Source of the DNA: Gammaproteobacteria bacterium
GTDB taxonomy: Bacteria > Pseudomonadota > Gammaproteobacteria > Pseudomonadales > Pseudohongiellaceae
Length of the DNA: 13,389 nucleotides
NCBI GenBank assembly: GCA_003451715.1
Contig: DMJN01000177.1
Span: forward strand, 1-13,389
Direction: 5' to 3'
The notes below the pieces were generated by a model that saw only the letters and a list, made by a program, of their open reading frames with translations, had not been told where the DNA came from and ran no database searches. Below, piece after piece: positions 1,283 through 13,301 of the stretch (within the stretch, counting starts at the first letter, position 1; each line of letters opens with the position of its first letter). A program made the translations under genes and the position numbers.

Positions 1283-1981
1283 ATGTACGGAAAATCCTGC
1301 TTGACAAGTGTCAGTGCCATCTGCCTGTGGCTGCTGCCGACGGTATTATTCGGGCATGCGGGCAGCCTCGATCTGAATGGTGGTCATTATTATGGCCCCT
1401 CCTACCATTGCCACATGACTGCCTGTGAAATGCCTGATACGTTCAATATCGGCCGCAGTAGCCGGGATAGCCTGCTCACGGATTACCGGAGCAGGGAAAA
1501 ATTCTTCAATGAGGATGATTGGTCGTTCGAAGAGGATTTCGATGAGGACTGTCAGTCGACGCGACAGGAAATGCTCATCCTTACCAGTAAATCAGAAGTG
1601 AGATACACAAACCCGAGAAATTGTGTGGTACGCACCGGGGAATGGCTGGATGAGTATACCGGTGAGACGTTTACGGTAGCCGTGCAGATCGATATCGATC
1701 ATATTATTCCCCGCATGTATGCACATACTCACGGTGGTGATCGCTGGATGCCGGAAAAGAAACTCATGTTTGCCAACGATCCTCTCAACATGGTGCTCGT
1801 GGAAAAACGTGAAATCAGGCGAAAACGAGACCGGGGGCCGAATCGCTATCTACCGCGTGATGAATTTCAATGTGAATATGTGACACTGTGGGAAGCCCTG
1901 GCGGAGAAATATGATTTGCAACTGGAATCCGGCGACCTCAGCGCAATCAGCCGTGTAAAGAGAGACTGTCCTGAGGAGTAG
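1283..1981 (+). CDS. secreted HNH-family nuclease (DUF1524 / GmrSD C-terminal type)
   Basis: I chose ATG 1283 because it follows a strong GGGAGG (1273-1278) and yields a signal peptide: residues 1-26 are hydrophobic and end in a plausible FGHA cleavage site. An upstream in-frame TTG at 1211 would bury that signal. The 232-residue product has a Tyr-His-Cys-His motif at 41-44, after GGHYYGPS, resembling the YHYH/YHCH segment often found in secreted bacterial nucleases. Its C-terminal half carries the ββα-metal nuclease core: IDHIIP with D139 and H140, then FANDPLN at 163-169, and a basic segment REIRRKRDRGPNRYLP. Three further Cys may form disulfides. It probably cleaves DNA or RNA in the periplasm or outside the cell, but the substrate is inferred from family only. 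It follows nadC closely and ends at a strong terminator. Confidence 0.82.
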   Translation: MYGKSCLTSVSAICLWLLPTVLFGHAGSLDLNGGHYYGPSYHCHMTACEMPDTFNIGRSSRDSLLTDYRSREKFFNEDDWSFEEDFDEDCQSTRQEMLILTSKSEVRYTNPRNCVVRTGEWLDEYTGETFTVAVQIDIDHIIPRMYAHTHGGDRWMPEKKLMFANDPLNMVLVEKREIRRKRDRGPNRYLPRDEFQCEYVTLWEALAEKYDLQLESGDLSAISRVKRDCPEE

Positions 1982-2005
1982 GGACGGACTGATTTTGCTC
2001 CAATC

Positions 2006-2038
2006 AAAAAAATGCCGAACAATGTTCGGCATTTTTTT
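2006..2038. terminator. bidirectional rho-independent terminator
   Basis: Two perfect 15-nt inverted arms, AAAAAAATGCCGAAC at 2006-2020 and its exact complement at 2024-2038, flank a 3-nt AAT loop. The GC-rich core is followed by a T7 run on the plus strand, and the A7 run provides the same on the minus strand. It sits between the convergent nuclease gene (stop 1981) and cytochrome gene (stop at 2051), so it can end transcription from both sides. Confidence 0.93.
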
Positions 2039-2050
2039 AATAGTCGAGTT

Positions 2051-2443
2051 TTACGGAGACTGGATGTTGATTAAATCCATCCCATTATCGGGATCCAGTT
2101 TAGTCTCACCAGCAGGGAAACCATTCTCCGACAGGATATAGGCAATGACGTCAGTGTACTCATCCAGCATCAGTGATCCTGGATTATCGGCCGGCATTGT
2201 GCCCATGATAGATTCCCAGAGATAGAGCAGCGGTTGATTATTCCAGGATTTCAGGGTATCCGTATAGAAGCGCATGTTGTGGCAGGTCGAACACTGTGCT
2301 TCATAAACCACCTCTCCAGAGGTGACCTGAGCTTCGGTAAACACGCCATCATTTACTGTCTTGTGCTGCGCCAGAGCAGCCTGTCCCGATAACAAGCACA
2401 TCAGCAAACTTACAAAACCTACTAATTTTACCGAATTTTTCAT
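2051..2443 (-). CDS. periplasmic monohaem cytochrome c
   Basis: The 130-residue protein starts with a clear Sec signal peptide (basic MKNSVK, hydrophobic 7-19, cleavage likely after ALA at 23-25). It has one haem-attachment motif CSTCH at residues 51-55. The probable distal axial ligand is Met83 in the IMGTMPADNPGSL segment, followed by a helix LDEYTDVIAYILSENGFPAG typical of class I cytochrome c domains fused to or paired with periplasmic dehydrogenases. It is expected to carry electrons in the periplasm, but no partner dehydrogenase is visible in the window. The start is preceded by AGAGGA at good spacing. It is transcribed alone and converges on the nuclease gene across the shared terminator. 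Confidence 0.9.
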   Translation of the reverse strand: MKNSVKLVGFVSLLMCLLSGQAALAQHKTVNDGVFTEAQVTSGEVVYEAQCSTCHNMRFYTDTLKSWNNQPLLYLWESIMGTMPADNPGSLMLDEYTDVIAYILSENGFPAGETKLDPDNGMDLINIQSP

Positions 2444-2811
2444 GATTCATTCCTCTGTAGCAGAACTCTGTCGTCCTATACTACTGCCCTGATTCGATTA
2501 TCTAAAAACACTGTTCCTGTGCCGCATCATCATGCCCTGATTTGCTCCGACTAAAACCGGCGTAAACATAAACCACATACACCACTTTATCAAGTCTAAG
2601 CCCTCGGATCGCGGCCATGTGTGTGATTTTTTGTTACTTATTTCAATCATTTAAGTTGTGGCTTCAGAATAACTTCTTGCAAATGAACCCGAGCTTAATC
2701 AAATCGACACCACGCAGAAGAATGCAATCTCCCACCAATTTCCCAAGATTCGTTATACCCTTTCCCAGGCCTCCCCTATAATGCGGCATGCGCTGAAGGC
2801 AGGAGAAATGA
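2444..2811. other. 368-bp divergent intergenic region
   Basis: This spacer separates the minus-strand cytochrome gene from the plus-strand methyltransferase gene and must hold promoters for both. It is more AT-rich than the flanking genes in its middle part (about 2620-2700). I see no convincing gene, tRNA or long repeat. The only recognisable element is a TATAAT box near the methyltransferase end. Confidence 0.6.
2777..2782 (+). promoter_or_regulatory. possible sigma-70 -10 box for the methyltransferase/flippase-like pair
   Basis: A perfect TATAAT lies 30 bp before the ATG at 2812, and an AGGAG ribosome site (2801-2805) lies between them. No good TTGACA match exists at 16-18 bp spacing; the nearest is TTATAC at 2753-2758. 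The call therefore rests on the -10 sequence and its position. Confidence 0.4.
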
Positions 2812-3441
2812 ATGGCGTTTGATAAAGAGACTGCCACACCTGAAGAACTATGGAAGTTCTATATGGGAAAGTACCAGAACCCGAATCCAGCCGCCAAGTG
2901 GCTGACGGAAGGGTTCTTCAGCGCCTTAGGACGACTGCTAAAAGACCTGCCCCAGGACTCCCGCATTCTCGAGCTTGGTTGTGGTCCCGGGATCTCCACC
3001 CGACGAATTCTCGAATTGATACAGGATCAGTACCTGGAAGCTTCTGAATTTGAACAACGCCTGGTAGACCTGCTCCTCAAGAACGGTTTTCCCGTAACCC
3101 TGTCACAGGAATCTGCATACGAGATGCACCGCGCGGATGATGAGTTCGACTGCATACTCCTTCTGGAAGTACTGGAACACCTCGAAAACGTCGATCTTGC
3201 CCTATCCGAAATATTTCGGGTGGCCCGGCAAACAGTCATTATCTCTGTACCCAATGAGCCGCTGTGGCGAATATTGAATTTTATGAGGGGAAAATATTGG
3301 AGAGAATGGGGGAACACGCCAGGTCATATCAACCACTGGTCAAAAAAGCCACTGGTCAAACTACTTGCCCAGCATGGAAACATCAAAGCTGTTCTAAGCC
3401 CTACTCCGTGGACGATCGTGCAAGTGGATATGCATGATTGA
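2812..3441 (+). CDS. class I SAM-dependent methyltransferase
   Basis: The 209-residue protein has the Rossmann-type SAM-binding motif ILELGCGPG around residues 47-55, an acidic segment in strand 2 (YLEASEFEQ), and the post-core strand DCILLLEVLEHLENVDLAL typical of Methyltransf_11/25-like enzymes. TVIISVPNEP then marks strand 5. The acceptor is unknown. Similar enzymes beside glycosyltransferases often methylate sugars, lipids or quinones, but nothing here decides. The start is ATG 2812 with AGGAG six bases upstream; an overlapping ATG at 2808 opens only a 4-codon frame. The gene overlaps the next one by 8 nt, so the two products are probably made together. Confidence 0.85.
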   Translation: MAFDKETATPEELWKFYMGKYQNPNPAAKWLTEGFFSALGRLLKDLPQDSRILELGCGPGISTRRILELIQDQYLEASEFEQRLVDLLLKNGFPVTLSQESAYEMHRADDEFDCILLLEVLEHLENVDLALSEIFRVARQTVIISVPNEPLWRILNFMRGKYWREWGNTPGHINHWSKKPLVKLLAQHGNIKAVLSPTPWTIVQVDMHD

Positions 3442-4390
3442 TTCGAAGAGCAAAGCGGGTTTAATACGAGCCACAATTATCGTTGTACTGATGATGTGTC
3501 TGTGCGTGGCGGCACTATTTCTGGTCAATTCTTATTCTTTGGCCGACATCGGCCTGATCCTGGAAAGCGAACTCTTGCTTCCGGCGGTACTGCTGCAGAT
3601 CATATCAATTATGCTGTTCATTCAGGCCTGGAAATTTTTACTCTCGATGGACACGCGCATTAGATTCAGTTTCCTGGAATGCACATCTCATATCGGCGTA
3701 ACACTCATGGGAAAATATATACCAGGAAAAATTTGGGGTCTGGTGGGTCGGAGTTATTTGTTAACGCGCCGTGGGCACAGTAAAAGCGATGCTGTAAATC
3801 TATTAGTTGCCGACCAGTTTCTGACATTTTACTCCGGCATTGCCGTAGGAACTATCGTGCTGCTGGCCTACTTCTCTGGCGTTACAGCGATCGCCACGTT
3901 GCTGGTCTTCGTTGTATGCTCCCCGTACATCATCAAGAGCTATGACTCGATCATTCAAAGAGTGTTTAGATGGAGTAAATTGTTTCTTAAGAGGCTGTCT
4001 GCAGAAATAGAACCCGAGGTAATCACGATACACCGAACATTTTTTGGCATCAGCCTGCTGAGTTACCTCATACATTGGCTGCTGATATCGTTGGTGCTGT
4101 GCCTGCTTTTCTATCCGGTGATAGCTTTCGATTTGCCGAGAAACTCATTGTTGATTGTCGCGGCTATTCCACTGGCTATGTTGTCGGGTTTCATTGCGTT
4201 GTGGGCGCCAGGAGGAGTCGGCGTACGCGAAGCGGTAATCGTGCTAATTTTGAGTCTTAATCTGCCCGTCAAGATCGCGCTGAGTGTGGCTATTACCTAT
4301 CGCCTGTTATGTGTGTTGAATGATCTTTGCACGGGGTGCTTTGCCGTGTACTTCTTCTCTCGATCGGGCTCTTCTCTAATCGAAAAGTAA
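3434..4390 (+). CDS. flippase-like integral membrane protein (LPG synthase TM / AglD-like family)
   Basis: The 318-residue protein is almost entirely hydrophobic, with about eight predicted membrane spans. It carries the two signatures of the lysylphosphatidylglycerol-synthase transmembrane (UPF0104/AglD-like) family: GKYIPGKIWG at residues 93-102 and LWAPGGVGVRE at 256-266. It lacks the cytosolic aminoacyltransferase domain, so it is the membrane-only version. In other organisms such proteins are linked to export or flipping of lipids and lipid-linked sugars and are often encoded beside glycosyltransferases. The precise activity is not established for this protein. It overlaps the methyltransferase gene by 8 nt and converges on the GT2 gene with only 5 bp between stops. 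Confidence 0.8.
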   Translation: MIDSKSKAGLIRATIIVVLMMCLCVAALFLVNSYSLADIGLILESELLLPAVLLQIISIMLFIQAWKFLLSMDTRIRFSFLECTSHIGVTLMGKYIPGKIWGLVGRSYLLTRRGHSKSDAVNLLVADQFLTFYSGIAVGTIVLLAYFSGVTAIATLLVFVVCSPYIIKSYDSIIQRVFRWSKLFLKRLSAEIEPEVITIHRTFFGISLLSYLIHWLLISLVLCLLFYPVIAFDLPRNSLLIVAAIPLAMLSGFIALWAPGGVGVREAVIVLILSLNLPVKIALSVAITYRLLCVLNDLCTGCFAVYFFSRSGSSLIEK

Positions 4391-5285: not shown

Positions 5286-7226
5286 TCAGTTCGCCACATC
5301 GAGTCGCTGAAAGTCATTTTCCAGCCTGCTGATTTCACTCATAACAGAAGGCAGCAATGGATTACGAGATTGATCGGCTAGCTTGGCCCGCTCTAAAAAT
5401 ACTAGGGACTCACCATAATTACCAGCCGAGGCAGAGAGTATTGCCTGACGAATTGGGATCTGAGGCACAGGATTGAGCTCAAACGCCCTTGTTAAACTAA
5501 TAAGAGCCTGGTTCAGCATCCCATAAAATACATACAAATCCGAAAAAAAGACTTGGTAGCTGGACCGTCTGGGAGTAGAGAGGGAAAATTCCCCGATGCG
5601 GGTAAACAGCTTGACCAGGGTCTGCAGATCTGGGTAATCACATCTTCGACTGATCAAGTTTTCCAGAAGGATGCGCAGATGATGGTTGATATCGTCTCTG
5701 TAATATTCAAGATCAGGATTCGCTGAGATATCAGCCAGGGAATACGTAACAGTAAGGCCACTCTCGCAGGCATAATTCCATTGATTCAGTAGTACAGTCA
5801 CCTCATTCGGATGGTAGCTTCGCGCGATTTCAATCCGCTCCATGGCGGCTTCGGGCAAATCCACTACGCGGAGGTATTCTGAATAAGTTAGTTGGGCACG
5901 AATTGAATCGGGCCGCTGTTCCGCCCAGTAGGAGTAAAGTACCGCCGCCTCACTCCACAGATTGGTCAGAGCCCAGGTCGACCAGGCAGCCAGGAAGGCA
6001 ATTACAGCCAGAAGAATTCGTAGGGATTGTTTCAGATGTTCGGCAATATTCGAGGATAGCCCTTGCCTGAAATACCATGCGACGGCAAATATTGGACCCA
6101 CCATTGCCAGATAATTTCTATGCTCGAAGTAAATCTCCAAGGGCATATAGCTGGATTCCAGCAGGTGCATCGGAAAAAACCACAATACGGCAAAGCTGTA
6201 AACGGGAATTTTACGACGCCAAATGAATGCACTGCTGAGAAGCGCTGCGATAAACAGCAACGATGGTAAAGTCGTTATAGGATCGAGCAGGCTTCTGGAA
6301 ATCGCGAAATTGTCATAAAACAGCCCGTTACCGAATGCGGTAGGCACCAGTATCTTCCATAGATACGCCGACAGTACCCGGGTCTGCGTCAGTAATCGCT
6401 CTCCCAGATGAAAATCTCTCGTTTCATATAAGACCAGGCTGTCCGGTGCGCTAACTGCGAGATAGGCAACCACTATCAGCAGCGGAAGCAACACACCAAC
6501 CCTGTACCACCAGCGATGAAGCCCGATTAGAGGCTGCTGCCAGAAAAATAACAGCTCCATCGATACGATTAGCAACAACAACAGAGCCCCGTTTTCCTTG
6601 CTGAGTAGTGATAGTAGTGCAAAGGGGAACAGCGCGAGGCATAACAATGCAGTGGCAGCCCTCGGGCTATACTCAATCACCCGCCGGGCACTCAAGTAGC
6701 ACACCAGTGAGAGGCTGGCGAACAGAGCCATGAGCTGCGTCATCCGTTGGATCACGTAGAGTGTGGTACTGGTGTTTAATGGGTGCAGTAACCACAAAGC
6801 GGTGACTAGCAATGCCAACTGGCCGCTGTGGGCTTGCGACATGTTCAGATGTTGAGCCAGAAGAAAGCAGAACCAGCAAATGGCAAGCCCGCAGAGGCAA
6901 TGGATCATCAGGTTGGTGTATTTCATGGCCGGTGGGTAGGGGGGCCAATCCTGGGCATCGATAAGAAAGGACAGCATCGACACAGGTCGTCCGGTGGGTC
7001 CGGCGCTGTTACTAAACACAAACTGCCGCAGTGTCTCCAGGCTGTTCACTCCCCCATTTTCGCCCAAGGGTCTCAGATTCGAAATATCATCCAGTAGCAA
7101 CGGGCTGGTCATGCCGGGCCAATAGAGTGCCAGGGTGAGCAAAACCAACACTGCCAGCCCAATCCCGAAATAGACTTCAGTACCAGCGGGGCGACTAAAA
7201 AAGCTCAAGTAATGCTTGTTTTCCAT
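5286..7226 (-). CDS. GT-C glycosyltransferase with TPR-like C-terminus (TMTC/PMT-like)
   Basis: The 646-residue protein has about ten membrane spans in residues 18-425, then a soluble, helix-rich tail of about 220 residues that looks like degenerate TPRs. Several motifs match the TMTC/PMT-like GT-C layout. An acidic pair LLLDD at 43-47 sits in the first periplasmic loop, where GT-C enzymes place catalytic or metal-binding residues. GRPVSMLSF follows at about 79-87, then HPLNTSTTLYVIQRM at about 148-162, LSKENG at about 209-214, and EHRNYLAMVGP at about 369-379. Enzymes of this type use lipid-phosphate sugars on the outer face of the membrane to glycosylate proteins or glycans. It is the first gene of a minus-strand pair with the GT2 and is divergent from the pilins. 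Its acceptor is unknown. Confidence 0.78.
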   Translation of the reverse strand: MENKHYLSFFSRPAGTEVYFGIGLAVLVLLTLALYWPGMTSPLLLDDISNLRPLGENGGVNSLETLRQFVFSNSAGPTGRPVSMLSFLIDAQDWPPYPPAMKYTNLMIHCLCGLAICWFCFLLAQHLNMSQAHSGQLALLVTALWLLHPLNTSTTLYVIQRMTQLMALFASLSLVCYLSARRVIEYSPRAATALLCLALFPFALLSLLSKENGALLLLLIVSMELLFFWQQPLIGLHRWWYRVGVLLPLLIVVAYLAVSAPDSLVLYETRDFHLGERLLTQTRVLSAYLWKILVPTAFGNGLFYDNFAISRSLLDPITTLPSLLFIAALLSSAFIWRRKIPVYSFAVLWFFPMHLLESSYMPLEIYFEHRNYLAMVGPIFAVAWYFRQGLSSNIAEHLKQSLRILLAVIAFLAAWSTWALTNLWSEAAVLYSYWAEQRPDSIRAQLTYSEYLRVVDLPEAAMERIEIARSYHPNEVTVLLNQWNYACESGLTVTYSLADISANPDLEYYRDDINHHLRILLENLISRRCDYPDLQTLVKLFTRIGEFSLSTPRRSSYQVFFSDLYVFYGMLNQALISLTRAFELNPVPQIPIRQAILSASAGNYGESLVFLERAKLADQSRNPLLPSVMSEISRLENDFQRLDVAN

Positions 7227-7354: not shown

Positions 7355-7481
7355 AACTACCCTGAAAAGAACTGGCAGAATTCGGGGTGTATACCTGGCA
7401 AGCGTGTACGACTTTAGACATTACACTTACAACAACAGACAAGCATACTCATTGAAATTGATAGAAACTGGAGATAGACAA

Positions 7482-7907
7482 ATGAAGAAAATACAGAAAG
7501 GTTTTACCCTAATCGAATTGATGATCGTTGTTGCGATTATCGGAATCCTGGCTGCAGTAGCTCTGTCCGCATATCAGAACTACTCTAACCGTGCTGCGTT
7601 CTCTGAACTGGTACTGGCCGTAACACCACTCAAGACTGCGGTTGAACTGGCTATCCAGACTCGTAGTCCTGCTAATACTGGCGCTCTCGAAGCAGCCGCA
7701 TTGGGTATTCCGGCTAACGTAACTGCTGGGGCAGATGTTCATGGATCTTCCGTAGCAAACGGTTTAATCACCATGACTTGGCGTGCTACCTCTGGCGGAT
7801 CTGCTGAGGCAATGGCTGGCGTAACCTACACACTAACAGCAGGCGGTATAACTCCTCCTGTGCAGTGGACTGAAGGTGGCACCTGTCTGGCTAATGGTTT
7901 TTGCTAA
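7482..7907 (+). CDS. pilA: type IV pilin, first of two tandem copies
   Basis: I chose ATG 7482 because it follows TGGAGA (7469-7474) and gives a standard short prepilin leader, MKKIQKG, cut before Phe by PilD. An in-frame start at 7347 would add 45 residues with no leader character. The mature 134-residue chain begins [16 protein letters not shown] with Glu5 kept, followed by a variable globular domain. Its C-terminus, [10 protein letters not shown], suggests a small disulfide loop at the very end. Position 22 is Ser (codon TCC) where type IV pilins almost always have Pro. Codon choice is rich in GCT, GTA, CGT and CTG, as in highly expressed genes, so this is probably the major pilin. It is transcribed away from the GT-C gene. 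Confidence 0.95.
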
Positions 7908-8133: not shown

Positions 8134-8550
8134 ATGATTCAGAAGAAGCAAAAAGGCTTTACACTGATAGAGCTGATGATCGTCACCGCCATTATCGGCA
8201 TCCTCGTCTCAGTAGCCCTTCCTGCCTATGATCTCTACCGCAACCGTGCCCGATTCTCAGAAGCGATTCTGGCGATAGGCTTCTACCGAGCCGCCATTCT
8301 GGTGCAGGCACATTCCGATCGATTCGGCACACTGGACGATGTAGATGCGGGCAGCAATGGAATACCGCCAATCCAGGCCCAGGCGACCAGCACACATGGG
8401 ATCGATGTTGTGAATGGTGTCATTACCGTGACCTGGATGGCGGACGGCACCGATTTGGCGGGGACCACCTATACCCTGGCTGCCCAGGGTGTGATCCCAC
8501 CGATACAATGGGTAACCGGTGGTAGCTGTGTAGTCGGCGGATACTGCTAA
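8134..8550 (+). CDS. type IV pilin, second tandem copy
   Basis: The 138-residue prepilin starts at ATG 8134 after AAGG (8122-8125), with leader MIQKKQKG cut before [16 protein letters not shown]. Glu5 and the conserved Pro22 (ALPAYDLY) are both present. Its tail, [10 protein letters not shown], mirrors pilA1, and both share a PPIQW/PPVQW strand before it, so the two are paralogues from a tandem duplication. The middle of the globular domain has diverged strongly. Codon choice favours GCC, ATC and CGC and looks ordinary rather than optimised, so a lower-abundance or conditionally used pilin is plausible. Its stop overlaps the stop of the opposite-strand TfpX/Z-like gene by 4 nt. Confidence 0.93.
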
Positions 8551-9290
8551 GGAATCTCTTCCCCGACAAGCTCTGCTGGTCTGACATACTGGTTATCATA
8601 GAACGCACCCAGTGACCTGCTGTCCCGATCGAAACACACGTAACCACTGGTCACCGCCGAGATAAAACGGGCAAAGGAGCAGGATTCCTGTAACTGGTTC
8701 AGCAGCTCTTCGCTTACCGTTGCCCTCACTGACTCCTCTTTACGAAATATTGCCATCAACTCCTGCTCAGACTCCGGCAGCGAGCGATAGCGTTCAGTCT
8801 GCATGTAGAGCGGGTCACCGGTAAACTGGCTACGGATTGAAACTATATCCGCCTGAATTTGATTTTCAGGGAGTTCGGTATGGATCAACTTGGGATAGGC
8901 TCCCGGATAGTCATTCAGTACGGACGGACTCTTCCCTAAATCCTCGTATTCCTGAGACGCGAGGCTGTAGATCGTGTCGTAAGCCAGTACCAGTGCAATA
9001 GGACGCTCTTCATAGACAATCCACATCCCGGCCGCCATGCAAATAACCTGGGCAGACGCGATATAGGTCAAGTCAAATTTCAGTCCGGGCTTACCGGCCC
9101 GGAACACGATAAGGGTCAACAGGGGTCCCAATACCAGATCCACTCCGATAATAATACGTAATCCAGTCCAGCCCCCATCGATACTGAACAAGATCCCTGG
9201 GCACCAGACAAATAGAATAATAGCCAGCAGTGCCAGGAATACCGCCAGGGATATTGAAAAGTGAATTGCAAATGCCTTCCACCGACTCAT
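8547..9290 (-). CDS. TfpX/TfpZ family type IV pilin accessory protein
   Basis: The 247-residue inner-membrane protein has three N-terminal spans (about 8-30, 44-64 and 74-93) and a periplasmic domain. The family hallmark is at residues 36-74: [19 protein letters not shown], then GPLLTLIVF and GKPGLKFDL. Two Cys in the periplasmic part (204 and 219) could form a disulfide. In Pseudomonas and Acinetobacter relatives these proteins are encoded next to particular pilin alleles and support pilus assembly, probably by acting on that pilin. An AGGAG (plus-strand 9298-9302) lies 7 bases before the ATG. The gene is unusual in being convergent with its pilin (stop codons share CTAA at 8547-8550) and divergent from pilB, rather than downstream in the same direction. 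Confidence 0.92.
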
Positions 9291-9401: not shown

Positions 9402-10904
9402 GTGTCAGCAAGCATGGGAGGTCTGGCTCGCAGACTGGTTTCCGACAAGCTCCTCGATCGATCCCAGGCGATTGCTGCTATATCATTAGCGGCAAAAGGC
9501 AACATACCTTTCGTCACGCAGCTCATCAGCAGTAAACAGCTCGATGGGTACTCGATAGCAGCTGCGGCTACTCGTGAATTCGGCCTACCATTGCTTGATC
9601 TACAAGCCTACGATTTACAGCGCTACCCCGAGAAGTTGATAGATTCTTCACTCATCAAAAAGCACAAGGTGCTACCTTTGTTGCAAAAGGGCAAAACCCT
9701 GTTCCTGGCCATGTCAGACTCCGCCAATCTAATTGCACTGGATGAAATCAAGTTTCACACCGGTCTATCTATTGAGATTGTGGTAGTCGAGGAAGACAAG
9801 CTTAGCAACGCAATCCTGGCCCTGGAAGACAATCGAGAACATACTGCAAGCGAGTTTATTGGGCTGGGAAAAAATCTGCTTCAGTCACCCGGCACTGTAG
9901 TAACCGCTGAACATCAGTCGAAGACGACAACGGCAGCCGATGAGGCTCCTATTGTACGATTCGTTAATGGCATGTTACTGAATGCCATCAAGAAAGAAGC
10001 ATCGGACATACACATCGAGCCCTATGAAAAAGTCTACCGAATTCGCTTTCGTATGGACGGCATTCTCCAACAAGTAGTTAGTCCCTCCATTAGTTTTGCA
10101 AGCCGTATCACTTCGAGGTTGAAGATAATGTCTCAGATGGATATTGCTGAACGTCGCATCCCTCAGGATGGTCGCATCAAGTTAAAACTCTCCAACTCGC
10201 GTGCCGTCGATTTCCGGGTTAATACCCTGCCGACACTTTGGGGTGAGAAAATCGTATTGCGATTACTCGATCCATCGACCGCACAGATGGGAATTGACTT
10301 GCTCGGTTTTGAAGAAAATCAGAAACAGCAATTTCTCAGGTCACTGCAATTGAGTCAGGGTCTGGTTCTGGTTACCGGACCAACGGGGAGTGGTAAGACT
10401 GTCTCGCTGTATTCCGGATTAAATATTCTAAATACCGTCGAACGCAATATCTCAGCAGCAGAAGATCCAGTGGAGATCAATCTGGAAGGCATTAACCAAC
10501 TAGCTGTCAATAACAAAGTAGGATTAGATTTTGCAGCTGCCTTACGGGCCTTCCTGCGCCAGGATCCGGATGTAGTAATGGTAGGCGAGATTCGGGATCT
10601 GGAGACTGCCGAAATCGCAATTCGAGCGGCTCAAACCGGTCACCTGGTGCTCTCTACTCTGCACTCTACCAGCGCGGCGGAAACCATCACCAGGCTGCAA
10701 AATATGGGAATTCCAGCTTTCAACCTGGCAACTTCACTGAGCTTAATCATCGCTCAGCGACTACTTCGCCGGCTCTGCAATCATTGTAAAGAAATCATGG
10801 AAATTCCCGAAAAAGTATTGATAGAAGAGGGTTTTAGGCCTGGCATGATCGACCAACTGAAGCTGTACAAAGCAGTCGGATGTAACCGGTGCAATGACGG
10901 CTAG
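9402..10904 (+). CDS. pilB: type IV pilus assembly ATPase PilB, interrupted by an in-frame amber codon
   Basis: PilB is the cytosolic hexameric ATPase that powers pilus extension. The first 500 codons contain an N-terminal MshEN-like domain, the ATPase core with Walker A GPTGSGKT at 326-333, an Asp-box/Walker B region ending PDVVMVGEIRD at 389-399, the His box GHLVLSTLHS, and the zinc-binding cysteine pairs CNHC (459-462) and CNRC (494-497). Codon 501 is TAG. The same frame then continues without another stop to 11096 and encodes the expected PilB C-terminus, giving 564 codons in total against a family norm near 566. The start may be GTG 9402 or the in-frame ATG 9414; neither has a strong ribosome site. 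Unless the TAG is a sequencing error or is read through, the product lacks 63 residues. Confidence 0.9.
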   Translation: MSASMGGLARRLVSDKLLDRSQAIAAISLAAKGNIPFVTQLISSKQLDGYSIAAAATREFGLPLLDLQAYDLQRYPEKLIDSSLIKKHKVLPLLQKGKTLFLAMSDSANLIALDEIKFHTGLSIEIVVVEEDKLSNAILALEDNREHTASEFIGLGKNLLQSPGTVVTAEHQSKTTTAADEAPIVRFVNGMLLNAIKKEASDIHIEPYEKVYRIRFRMDGILQQVVSPSISFASRITSRLKIMSQMDIAERRIPQDGRIKLKLSNSRAVDFRVNTLPTLWGEKIVLRLLDPSTAQMGIDLLGFEENQKQQFLRSLQLSQGLVLVTGPTGSGKTVSLYSGLNILNTVERNISAAEDPVEINLEGINQLAVNNKVGLDFAAALRAFLRQDPDVVMVGEIRDLETAEIAIRAAQTGHLVLSTLHSTSAAETITRLQNMGIPAFNLATSLSLIIAQRLLRRLCNHCKEIMEIPEKVLIEEGFRPGMIDQLKLYKAVGCNRCNDG

Positions 10905-11096
10905 AGAGGCAGAATCGGAATTTATGAAGTAGTTCCCATTACTGACTGCCTATCTCGGATTATCATGCAAGGTGGAAATTCGATACAGATTGCAGATCAA
11001 GCCCAGTCCGAGGGTTTTGACAATCTTAGACAATCGGCATTGCTGAAGGCAGGGGCTGGGCTGACCAGCCTGGAAGAAGCTAACAGGTTGACTTAA
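10905..11096 (+). pseudogene. pilB: 3' part of pilB, separated from the main frame by TAG
   Basis: In frame with pilB and directly after codon 501, this encodes RGRIGIYEVVPITDCLSRII, then an IQIADQAQSEGFDNLRQSALLKAG segment, and ends LTSLEEANRLT. These are the normal last 63 residues of PilB. Intact relatives read C-x-x-C-x-G-T-G-Y-K-G-R at this junction, so TAG replaces a Tyr codon (TAC or TAT). The fragment shows no decay: no frameshift and no further stops. It has no start of its own, so it is expressed only by readthrough or if the TAG is an error. Confidence 0.85.
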
Positions 11097-11170
11097 TGGA
11101 TATTTTTGTGGGACATGGTATAGTTGTTCGAGTCCTATTTAACACGCCCGAAAATTCGCTGAGGTGAGCT

Positions 11171-12388
11171 ATGGCAACTGAAGCCGTACAAAATATTTAC
11201 TTATGGCAGGGTACCGATAAGAACGGTAATAAGACTAAGGGTGATATACAGGGCAGCTCTCAGGCGCTCGTCAAGGCCCAGCTTCGCAAGCAAGGTGTCA
11301 ATCCTACCAGGGTCAAGAAGAAGTCGAAGGAAATATTTGGGAAGAAGAAGCAAAAGATTAAACCTGTCGACATCGCCGTGTTCACTCGTCAGCTGGCGAC
11401 TATGATGAAATCAGGCATCCCCCTGGTTCAGTCCTTCGAAATTGTCGGTGAATCTCTGGAGAACCCCTCCATGCGCGAGCTAGTTATGCTAATTCGCGAT
11501 GACGTAGCCGCTGGTAATAATTTCGCCGATTGTATTCGTAAACACCCACGTTACTTTGACGACCTGTTTTGCAACCTGGTGGACGCCGGTGAGCAATCCG
11601 GTGCGCTAGAGACGATGCTCGACAGACTCGCAACCTATAAAGAAAAATCTGAAGCCCTGAAGGCCAAAATCAAGAAAGCTATGAATTACCCGATCGGTGT
11701 CGTAGCGGTGGCTATCATCGTGACAGGAATCTTGCTGGTGAAAGTTGTACCGCAGTTTGCGGAAACATTTTCGAGCTTCGGCGCAGAATTGCCAGCCTTT
11801 ACCCTGATAGTACTCAACCTCTCCGATCTTGCGATCGCTCATTGGTGGAAAGCGCTAATCGGCCTGGCAGTGTTTGGTTTCATTTTTAAGGAAGCCCGCA
11901 TCAGATCGCCAGCCTTTGCACAAACCATAGAAAGAATGTCGCTTAAGTTGCCGATTGTAGGACCCATACTGAATAGCTCGTGCTATGCGCACTTTACCCG
12001 CACCCTTGCCACCACCTTCTCTGCAGGTGTGCAACTGGTGGACGCACTGGAGTCTGTAGCTGGAGCTACCGGCAACATTGTCTATGCCACGGCCACTCGC
12101 AAGATTAAGGACAATGTGACCACCGGCCAGCAACTGAACTTCGCTATCAAGAATACCACCTTGTTCCCAGTCATGATTACCCAGATGGTGGGGATTGGCG
12201 AGGAGTCCGGTGCTCTGGATTCGATGCTGGACAAGTGTGCCGTGTTCTATGAGGCGGAAGTGGATAATGCTGTAGACGGTCTGACGGCCCTTATGGAACC
12301 GATGATCATGGCAGTCCTGGGTGTCCTGGTGGGTGGCTTGATGATTGCTATGTACTTGCCAATCTTCCAACTTGGCGCGGTTATGTAG
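11171..12388 (+). CDS. pilC: type IV pilus inner-membrane platform protein PilC
   Basis: PilC (GspF family) is the inner-membrane platform that passes PilB's motion to pilin subunits. The 405 residues show the typical plan: a short N-terminal domain (YLWQGTDKNGNKTKG), a basic linker rich in Lys, and two T2SF repeats. The first repeat has FTRQLATMMKSGIPLVQSFE and DAGEQSGALETMLDRLA. The second has FTRTLATTFSAGVQLVDALE and GIGEESGALDSMLDKCA. Membrane helices fall around 172-192, 215-235 and at the C-terminus (MAVLGVLVGGLMIAMYLPIF). A good GAGGTGAG ribosome site precedes ATG 11171. It lies 74 bp after the pilB reading frame and 13 bp before pilD, in the standard operon order. Confidence 0.97.
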   Translation: MATEAVQNIYLWQGTDKNGNKTKGDIQGSSQALVKAQLRKQGVNPTRVKKKSKEIFGKKKQKIKPVDIAVFTRQLATMMKSGIPLVQSFEIVGESLENPSMRELVMLIRDDVAAGNNFADCIRKHPRYFDDLFCNLVDAGEQSGALETMLDRLATYKEKSEALKAKIKKAMNYPIGVVAVAIIVTGILLVKVVPQFAETFSSFGAELPAFTLIVLNLSDLAIAHWWKALIGLAVFGFIFKEARIRSPAFAQTIERMSLKLPIVGPILNSSCYAHFTRTLATTFSAGVQLVDALESVAGATGNIVYATATRKIKDNVTTGQQLNFAIKNTTLFPVMITQMVGIGEESGALDSMLDKCAVFYEAEVDNAVDGLTALMEPMIMAVLGVLVGGLMIAMYLPIFQLGAVM

Positions 12389-12401: not shown

Positions 12402-13301
12402 ATGGCAATATTCGAATTACTCTCGACGAGCACGCCTATACTCATTACAGTCTGTGTCATCCTGGGAATGCTGGTAGGCAGTTTTCTGAATGTGGTCGTG
12501 TATCGAATGCCGATCATGTTGCAAAGAGACTGGAAACAACAGTGTTGCAAGTATCTGGAGATCGAGAACTCCCTCCCCGACAACAACGCCTCTTCCGCAA
12601 AATTTGAAGTCTTCAACTTACGCAAGCCTGACTCTCACTGCCCGAACTGCAACCACAAGATAAGACCCTGGGAGAATGTGCCGGTATTCAGCTACCTGTT
12701 CCTGGGCGGCAAGTGCTCAGACTGCAAGACCAAAATTTCCCTGCGTTACCCATCCGTTGAATTCATCAATGGTGTTATCTCCGGGCTGGTGGCCTATACC
12801 TTTGGCGCCACCTGGCTGACATTAGCCGTGTTGCTGCTGGCCTGGTGTCTGGTGGTACTGACGCTTATCGATTTTGATCACCAACTATTGCCGGATGACA
12901 TAACAATCCCTTTGTTATGGCTGGGACTGCTGGTTAATGCTGTCGATCTGGGATTTGGCGTCAGCCTGCGGGATGCTGTGATTGGCGCGATCGCCGGTTA
13001 TCTGGTGCTGTGGAGTATCTACTGGATATTCAAGCTCGCCACCGGTAAGGAAGGCATGGGCTATGGAGATTTCAAGTTGCTGGCTGCACTGGGCGCCTGG
13101 ATGGGGTGGCGGAGCCTACTGCCGATCATCATTCTGTCGTCGCTGGTGGGAGCCGTGCTGGGACTGGTCATGATAGTGGCTACGGGGAGAGATAAATCGG
13201 TACCGATGCCCTTCGGGCCTTTTCTGGCCGGTGCTGGCTTTATCATGTTGATCTGGGGTTCGCAGCTCAATTCATTTTATCTCAACACTGTGGTTGGCTA
13301 G
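12402..13301 (+). CDS. pilD: prepilin peptidase / N-methyltransferase PilD
   Basis: PilD cleaves prepilin leaders after Gly and methylates the new N-terminal Phe, at the inner membrane. The 299 residues include GSFLNVVVYRMP at 26-37 and the cytosolic zinc tetracysteine pairs CPNC (80-83) and CSDC (105-108), needed for the methylase part. The two aspartyl-protease catalytic sites are the LIDFDHQLLPDD region (around D157) and GYGDFK (D223). FGPFLAGAG at 271-279 closes the family pattern, and about eight membrane spans are present. Nothing looks damaged, so both pilins here can be processed. The start has no evident ribosome site and lies 13 bp after pilC, suggesting translational coupling. Confidence 0.97.
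   Translation: MAIFELLSTSTPILITVCVILGMLVGSFLNVVVYRMPIMLQRDWKQQCCKYLEIENSLPDNNASSAKFEVFNLRKPDSHCPNCNHKIRPWENVPVFSYLFLGGKCSDCKTKISLRYPSVEFINGVISGLVAYTFGATWLTLAVLLLAWCLVVLTLIDFDHQLLPDDITIPLLWLGLLVNAVDLGFGVSLRDAVIGAIAGYLVLWSIYWIFKLATGKEGMGYGDFKLLAALGAWMGWRSLLPIIILSSLVGAVLGLVMIVATGRDKSVPMPFGPFLAGAGFIMLIWGSQLNSFYLNTVVG

Follow-up and report, generated by a model that had tools for sequence, protein, structure and literature searches.

The pilB gene of the window, by which we mean the whole stretch of 13,389 nucleotides that was analysed, is interrupted by a single in-frame amber codon. We consider it highly probable that this codon is a genuine, recent nonsense mutation whose product is very probably non-functional, in a lineage that has most likely ceased to extend type IVa pili. 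Contig C245, which is the window, belongs to a 68.8% complete genome of 2.69 Mb in 343 contigs, evidently assembled from a metagenome. Among named loci the nearest are from metagenome-assembled Pseudomonadales, and the listed homologues include Pseudohongiellaceae at 66-67% (PilB) and Pseudohongiella at 88% (PilC), which points only tentatively to the family. Two pilin genes (pilin 1, then pilin 2) come first among the pilus genes, followed by a TfpX/Z-like accessory gene on the opposite strand and by pilB, pilC and pilD, with these features:

7482..7907, + strand: type IV pilin 1, open (ORF and profile match)
8134..8550, + strand: type IV pilin 2, open (ORF and profile match)
8547..9290, - strand: TfpX/TfpZ-like pilin accessory protein (126.8 bits, below the cut-off of 200)
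9402..10904, + strand: 5′ part of pilB, 500 codons and the amber TAG, with MshEN and most of the T2SSE ATPase domain (ORF, TIGR02538, Pfam)
10377..10400, + strand: Walker A motif GPTGSGKT, kept in the short PilB
10776..10892, + strand: two Cys pairs of the zinc motif (codons 459, 462, 494 and 497), kept just 5′ of the TAG
10902..10904, + strand: in-frame TAG, pilB codon 501, in a column occupied by Tyr (101) or Phe (4) in the other 105 loci
10905..11093, + strand: 63 open codons 3′ of the TAG, the normal PilB C-terminus (TIGR02538 500-562; T2SSE 311-370)
11094..11096, + strand: TAA, the ordinary pilB end (frame reading)
11171..12388, + strand: pilC, open, 405 aa, ending in TAG (ORF and profile match)
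12402..13301, + strand: pilD (prepilin peptidase), open, 299 aa, ending in TAG (named from its position and its resemblance to ORFs of relatives; without an NCBIfam match)

The pilB frame starts with GTG at 9402, and the relative P0003 begins likewise with MSASMGGLARRLV. The 500-codon part matches profile positions 1-495 of TIGR02538 (type IV-A pilus assembly ATPase PilB) with 708.8 bits, by itself passing the whole-protein cut-off of 675.65 bits, while the 63 codons after the TAG match positions 500-562 (E = 1.2e-18). Pfam T2SSE (length 370) is divided in the same way, with positions 2-307 before the TAG and 311-370 after it. The reading frame and both profiles thus bear out what the earlier note had described, a TAG at codon 501 followed by 63 clean in-frame codons of the PilB C-terminus, and to judge from these matches the post-TAG frame is not a chance open frame. 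The markers of PilB are present, namely the Walker A motif and Cys 459, 462, 494 and 497, the last four forming a tetracysteine zinc motif whose role in PilB is treated in the accessible text of PMC11656802. The C-terminal ATPase part is not complete in a single reading frame, and the gene is therefore classed as broken. Around the stop the local sequence is C-N-R-C-N-D-G-stop-R-G-R, so that of the motif originally proposed, C-x-x-C-x-G-T-G-Y-K-G-R, the Cys pair just before the stop is there, while G-T-G is absent and the usual Lys is Arg.

The residue that the stop replaces is conserved among homologues. Across 107 aligned loci, a set with some paralogues in it and with a few genes represented more than once, the column holds Tyr in 101 and Phe in 4, the remaining two being copies of the window itself, so the TAG does replace a conserved Tyr, as had been claimed. 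No stop occurs at this column in any of the 105 other loci, and the homologue is thus intact there in relatives and interrupted in the window lineage only, as expected of a pseudogene. A length of 555 aa or more is reached by 118 of the 120 listed PilB homologues; only P0001 (500 aa) and P0039 (510 aa) are shorter, and truncation at the C-terminal end is by this count rare. The lost C-terminal part is also covered by the best-matching PilB structures (6olj, 5tsg, 5zfr and 3jc8), and its conservation in length and structure supports a recent null mutation.

P0001 is the sole close match among the listed proteins; it ends at the same codon as the window PilB and differs from it by a single residue (T422S), and its longest contig is 5,818 bases. 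The next listed match falls to 70% identity, and none of the listed others is higher. Two non-identical sequences with a common end make a sequencing or assembly error unlikely, and the in-frame TAG is probably genuine. P0001 and the window may share one sample, and the P0001 cluster may hide a longer member, so the shared end is good but not final evidence for a real stop. Residue 422 is conserved in 117 of the 118 references, and a change there between the two short sequences is a further point in favour of a recent null mutation.

Elsewhere in the window, the frames of pilC, pilD and both pilins are all open, as first reported. A PilC identical to that of the window (P0121) is listed on 12 contigs, the longest of 113,762 bases, and a plasmid search returned only distant pilB matches in the 60-80% identity band. 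By eye only, the ORF at 1211-1981 has an HNH-nuclease-like look. We do not count pilT or pilQ as lost. No PilT-family match over the cut-off was found in the 68.8% complete genome, and the contig expected to border pilT begins inside yggS; the search for pilQ yielded just a C-terminal piece, located on a scaffold of doubtful quality; in both cases the absence may be a gap in the data. On that scaffold (G000:C122 8840-9720, L213) the pilQ piece is followed by an aroK-like frame, NN and the beginning of pilM, and some 24 bases are repeated on both sides.

The second extension motor of the same genome is broken as well. Six of its genes carry a T2SSE domain (seven rows, two of which are one gene), among them the following:

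G000:C343 4693-6474 (L145): gene of a TfpB-like second extension motor, interrupted three times in frame (TAG, TAG, TAA), its neighbours having open frames

The pieces of this gene match the TfpB model best, with 486.7 and 291.7 bits, and its stop-free relatives in G012 and G011 reach 913.1 and 915.8 bits, over the model cut-off of 850 bits. GspE on C252 shows no stops over the compared part, and neither does C47. The genes on C240 (L144) and C277 (L147) are MshEN/T2SSE ATPase copies, 89.7% alike, each with one TAG and with frameshifts relative to an open 856-codon frame of G011; in both, the TAG lies at a Gln position of the reference. Across the T2SSE-family genes of this genome, pilB included, five of the six in-frame stops are TAG. 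As a control, 62 domain matches from the same genome (42 ABC-transporter, 7 RND-transporter and 13 AMP-binding; 14,081 codons) were free of in-frame stops, two of the 44 ABC-transporter rows, C240 and C277, having been left out because they are secretion-type ATPases. Damage thus affects four of six T2SSE genes, including pilB, versus none of 62 control matches (Fisher p = 1.8e-5), a comparison in which inspection was uneven, the ATPase genes being read beyond the domain and for frameshifts and the controls for stops within the matched domain only. A codon-usage scan for in-frame stops distinguished coding from other frames too poorly, and its 166 junctions, most judged noise or neighbouring genes though not one by one, serve as leads only.

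The course of events we propose is as follows. The TAG at codon 501 would yield a 500-residue PilB whose T2SSE ATPase domain lacks its end, and such a protein is very probably non-functional. With TfpB lost too, both motor genes are broken, and extension of type IVa pili is most likely absent from the lineage. Three stops in tfpB versus one in pilB suggest that tfpB probably went first.

Lesions in pilB are found elsewhere in the genus. A PilB match over the cut-off was obtained in 33 of the 84 genus genomes searched, and we read 31 pilB loci, 30 from this search plus that of G020; four of these (the window, G020, G012 and G007) are broken, by different lesions, and the three breaks outside the window add to the case for a recent null mutation. 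In G020 the first 213 residues are missing and an internal TAG follows, with pilC open. What is left of its pilB, the 3′ part, lies directly against the end of a gene similar to the window ORF 5286-7226, and that stretch yielded neither a pilin nor an accessory gene; the junction (L168, G020:C23:2500-7000, within 1561-3657) looks like the result of a deletion, which is hard to explain as an assembly error. The pilB of G012 (L028), whose protein is P0039, the second short one listed, shifts frame around residue 475, where six A stand in a row (7432-7455), which may reflect slippage, error or mutation, and that of G007 (L171, G007:C126) does so near residue 103, at about 1059, with no long homopolymer there. 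Both frameshifts could be errors of metagenome assembly. In the other 27 genus loci the aligned part, which in many begins only at residue 13-59, is free of internal stops and changes of frame. Stops flagged in pilB of G074, G022, G094, G054 and G095 are natural terminators at the profile end and were dropped from the broken count. A PilT-family match of G003 (L214, G003:C6) was also flagged with one internal TAG.

Decay of the gene itself is not seen. The post-TAG part has a mean identity of 74.2%, with 41 of 118 references lower, and residues 171-500 have 72.9%, with 5 of 118 lower. This absence of extra divergence after the TAG fits a recent loss of pilB and is no proof of it; the 63 codons would look intact because there has been too little time for decay. 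Signs of relaxed selection on the rest of the gene were also considered. Of the PilB columns conserved at 98% or more, 8 of 200 are changed in the window (leave-one-out median 0, maximum 8, over 118 references), and its sister protein P0007 has 8 of 207 changed when near kin are left out. The ratio of PilB to PilC divergence has a median of 2.96 in ten pairs with the window and of 1.28 in 45 other pairs (range 0.84-3.99); against the same three close genomes it is 2.54-3.12 for G074 and 2.68-3.24 for the window. The window cannot be told from P0007 and G074 by these measures, and we therefore make no use of them as evidence of relaxed selection.

Several other explanations for the TAG have to be weighed. 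A sequencing or assembly error, which the earlier note had listed as an option, would suit a metagenome assembly that is fragmented, contains N gaps and has one or more doubtful scaffolds, yet we regard it as very improbable, given that the non-identical P0001 stops at the same codon, that the site is without repeats and that the 62 control matches of the same genome contain no stop. The lack of a repeat bears equally on phase variation, another suggestion made at the outset: no direct or inverted repeat was found in 10700-11100 at the settings used, so that slippage or inversion would have no visible substrate there. Readthrough or amber suppression would instead produce some full-length PilB, so that short and long motors coexist. 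The window does resemble known cases of stop-codon recoding, in which TAG is read as an amino acid, in having an in-frame TAG flanked on both sides by conserved coding sequence, and the frame 3′ of the TAG is intact. It differs from them in that, in the same genome, TAG terminates neighbouring genes: pilC and pilD, directly 3′ of pilB, end in TAG at their relatives' lengths. Since none of the 62 conserved matches contains an in-frame TAG either, TAG is, as far as the genome can be read, not recoded as sense genome-wide.

Release factors and tRNAs are less complete. RF2 was found and RF1 was not, in a genome 68.8% complete, while RF1 is over the cut-off in 21 of the 23 genomes searched. A bacterium usually carries about 40 or more tRNA genes. 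Here there were 14 matches, 13 of them confirmed as genes by ARAGORN, and none of the 13 has the anticodon CUA, most tRNAs being absent from the incomplete genome. A suppressor could therefore sit in the missing part, but suppressor-driven readthrough finds no positive evidence in the tRNA genes at hand. Programmed readthrough fares no better: the stop is unconserved, being absent from all 105 other loci, and the RNA fold downstream of the TAG is hardly better than shuffled sequence (z -1.30; 26 of 200 shuffles as good), which leaves a structure promoting readthrough unsupported. We accordingly hold it very unlikely that readthrough or suppression supplies full-length PilB. The same low probability attaches to a variant in which natural suppression or leaky termination would mix rare full-length PilB with short subunits, a brake on pilus extension in a lineage without TfpB. 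Finally, the 500-residue protein might itself be kept by selection as a working or dominant-negative motor. It retains Walker A and all four zinc cysteines, and the mutant PilB subunit D388A is likely dominant negative in Pseudomonas aeruginosa, according to the accessible text of PMC13170266. This reading is nonetheless exceedingly unlikely, because the C-terminus is kept in 118 of 120 listed homologues, the T422S change falls on a conserved position and the second extension motor is broken too.

A recent null mutation, which had been proposed among these options, draws its support from the shared end of P0001, the standard use of TAG and the broken tfpB; the open pilins, pilC and pilD and the lack of extra post-TAG divergence count against it. 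The nearest functional comparison is the two-motor system of Acinetobacter baylyi, for which the accessible text of PMC8213720 reports that, with pilT intact, visible pili occur in neither the single pilB and tfpB mutants nor the double mutant, that transformation is undetectable in the double mutant, and that a triple mutant also lacking pilT has no detectable pili. Genus relatives of the window likewise carry PilB and TfpB over the model cut-off, whereas both motor genes of the window's genome are interrupted by stops. In P. aeruginosa, pilus-targeting phage selects pilB loss-of-function mutants, and the available part of PMC13170266 lists a pilB frameshift that leads to a premature stop, together with nonsense changes in other pilus genes. 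Those mutants share with the window the loss of the extension motor through a pilB lesion. They were, however, selected in the laboratory, and the window lesion lies near the C-terminus in an environmental genome, is found in two public sequences and has no known selecting agent.

The window thus looks like a case of ordinary gene loss, not a new reading of the genetic code, and it serves as a warning that, when one isolated amber codon interrupts a frame of an environmental genome, decay is a likelier cause than recoding. It points to a lineage in nature that has open frames for its pilins, platform protein and prepilin peptidase but broken genes for both type IV pilus extension motors. The genus, in which pilB carries several different lesions, is a setting for studying the causes of pilus loss beyond the clinic, with phages and a settled life as possible examples.
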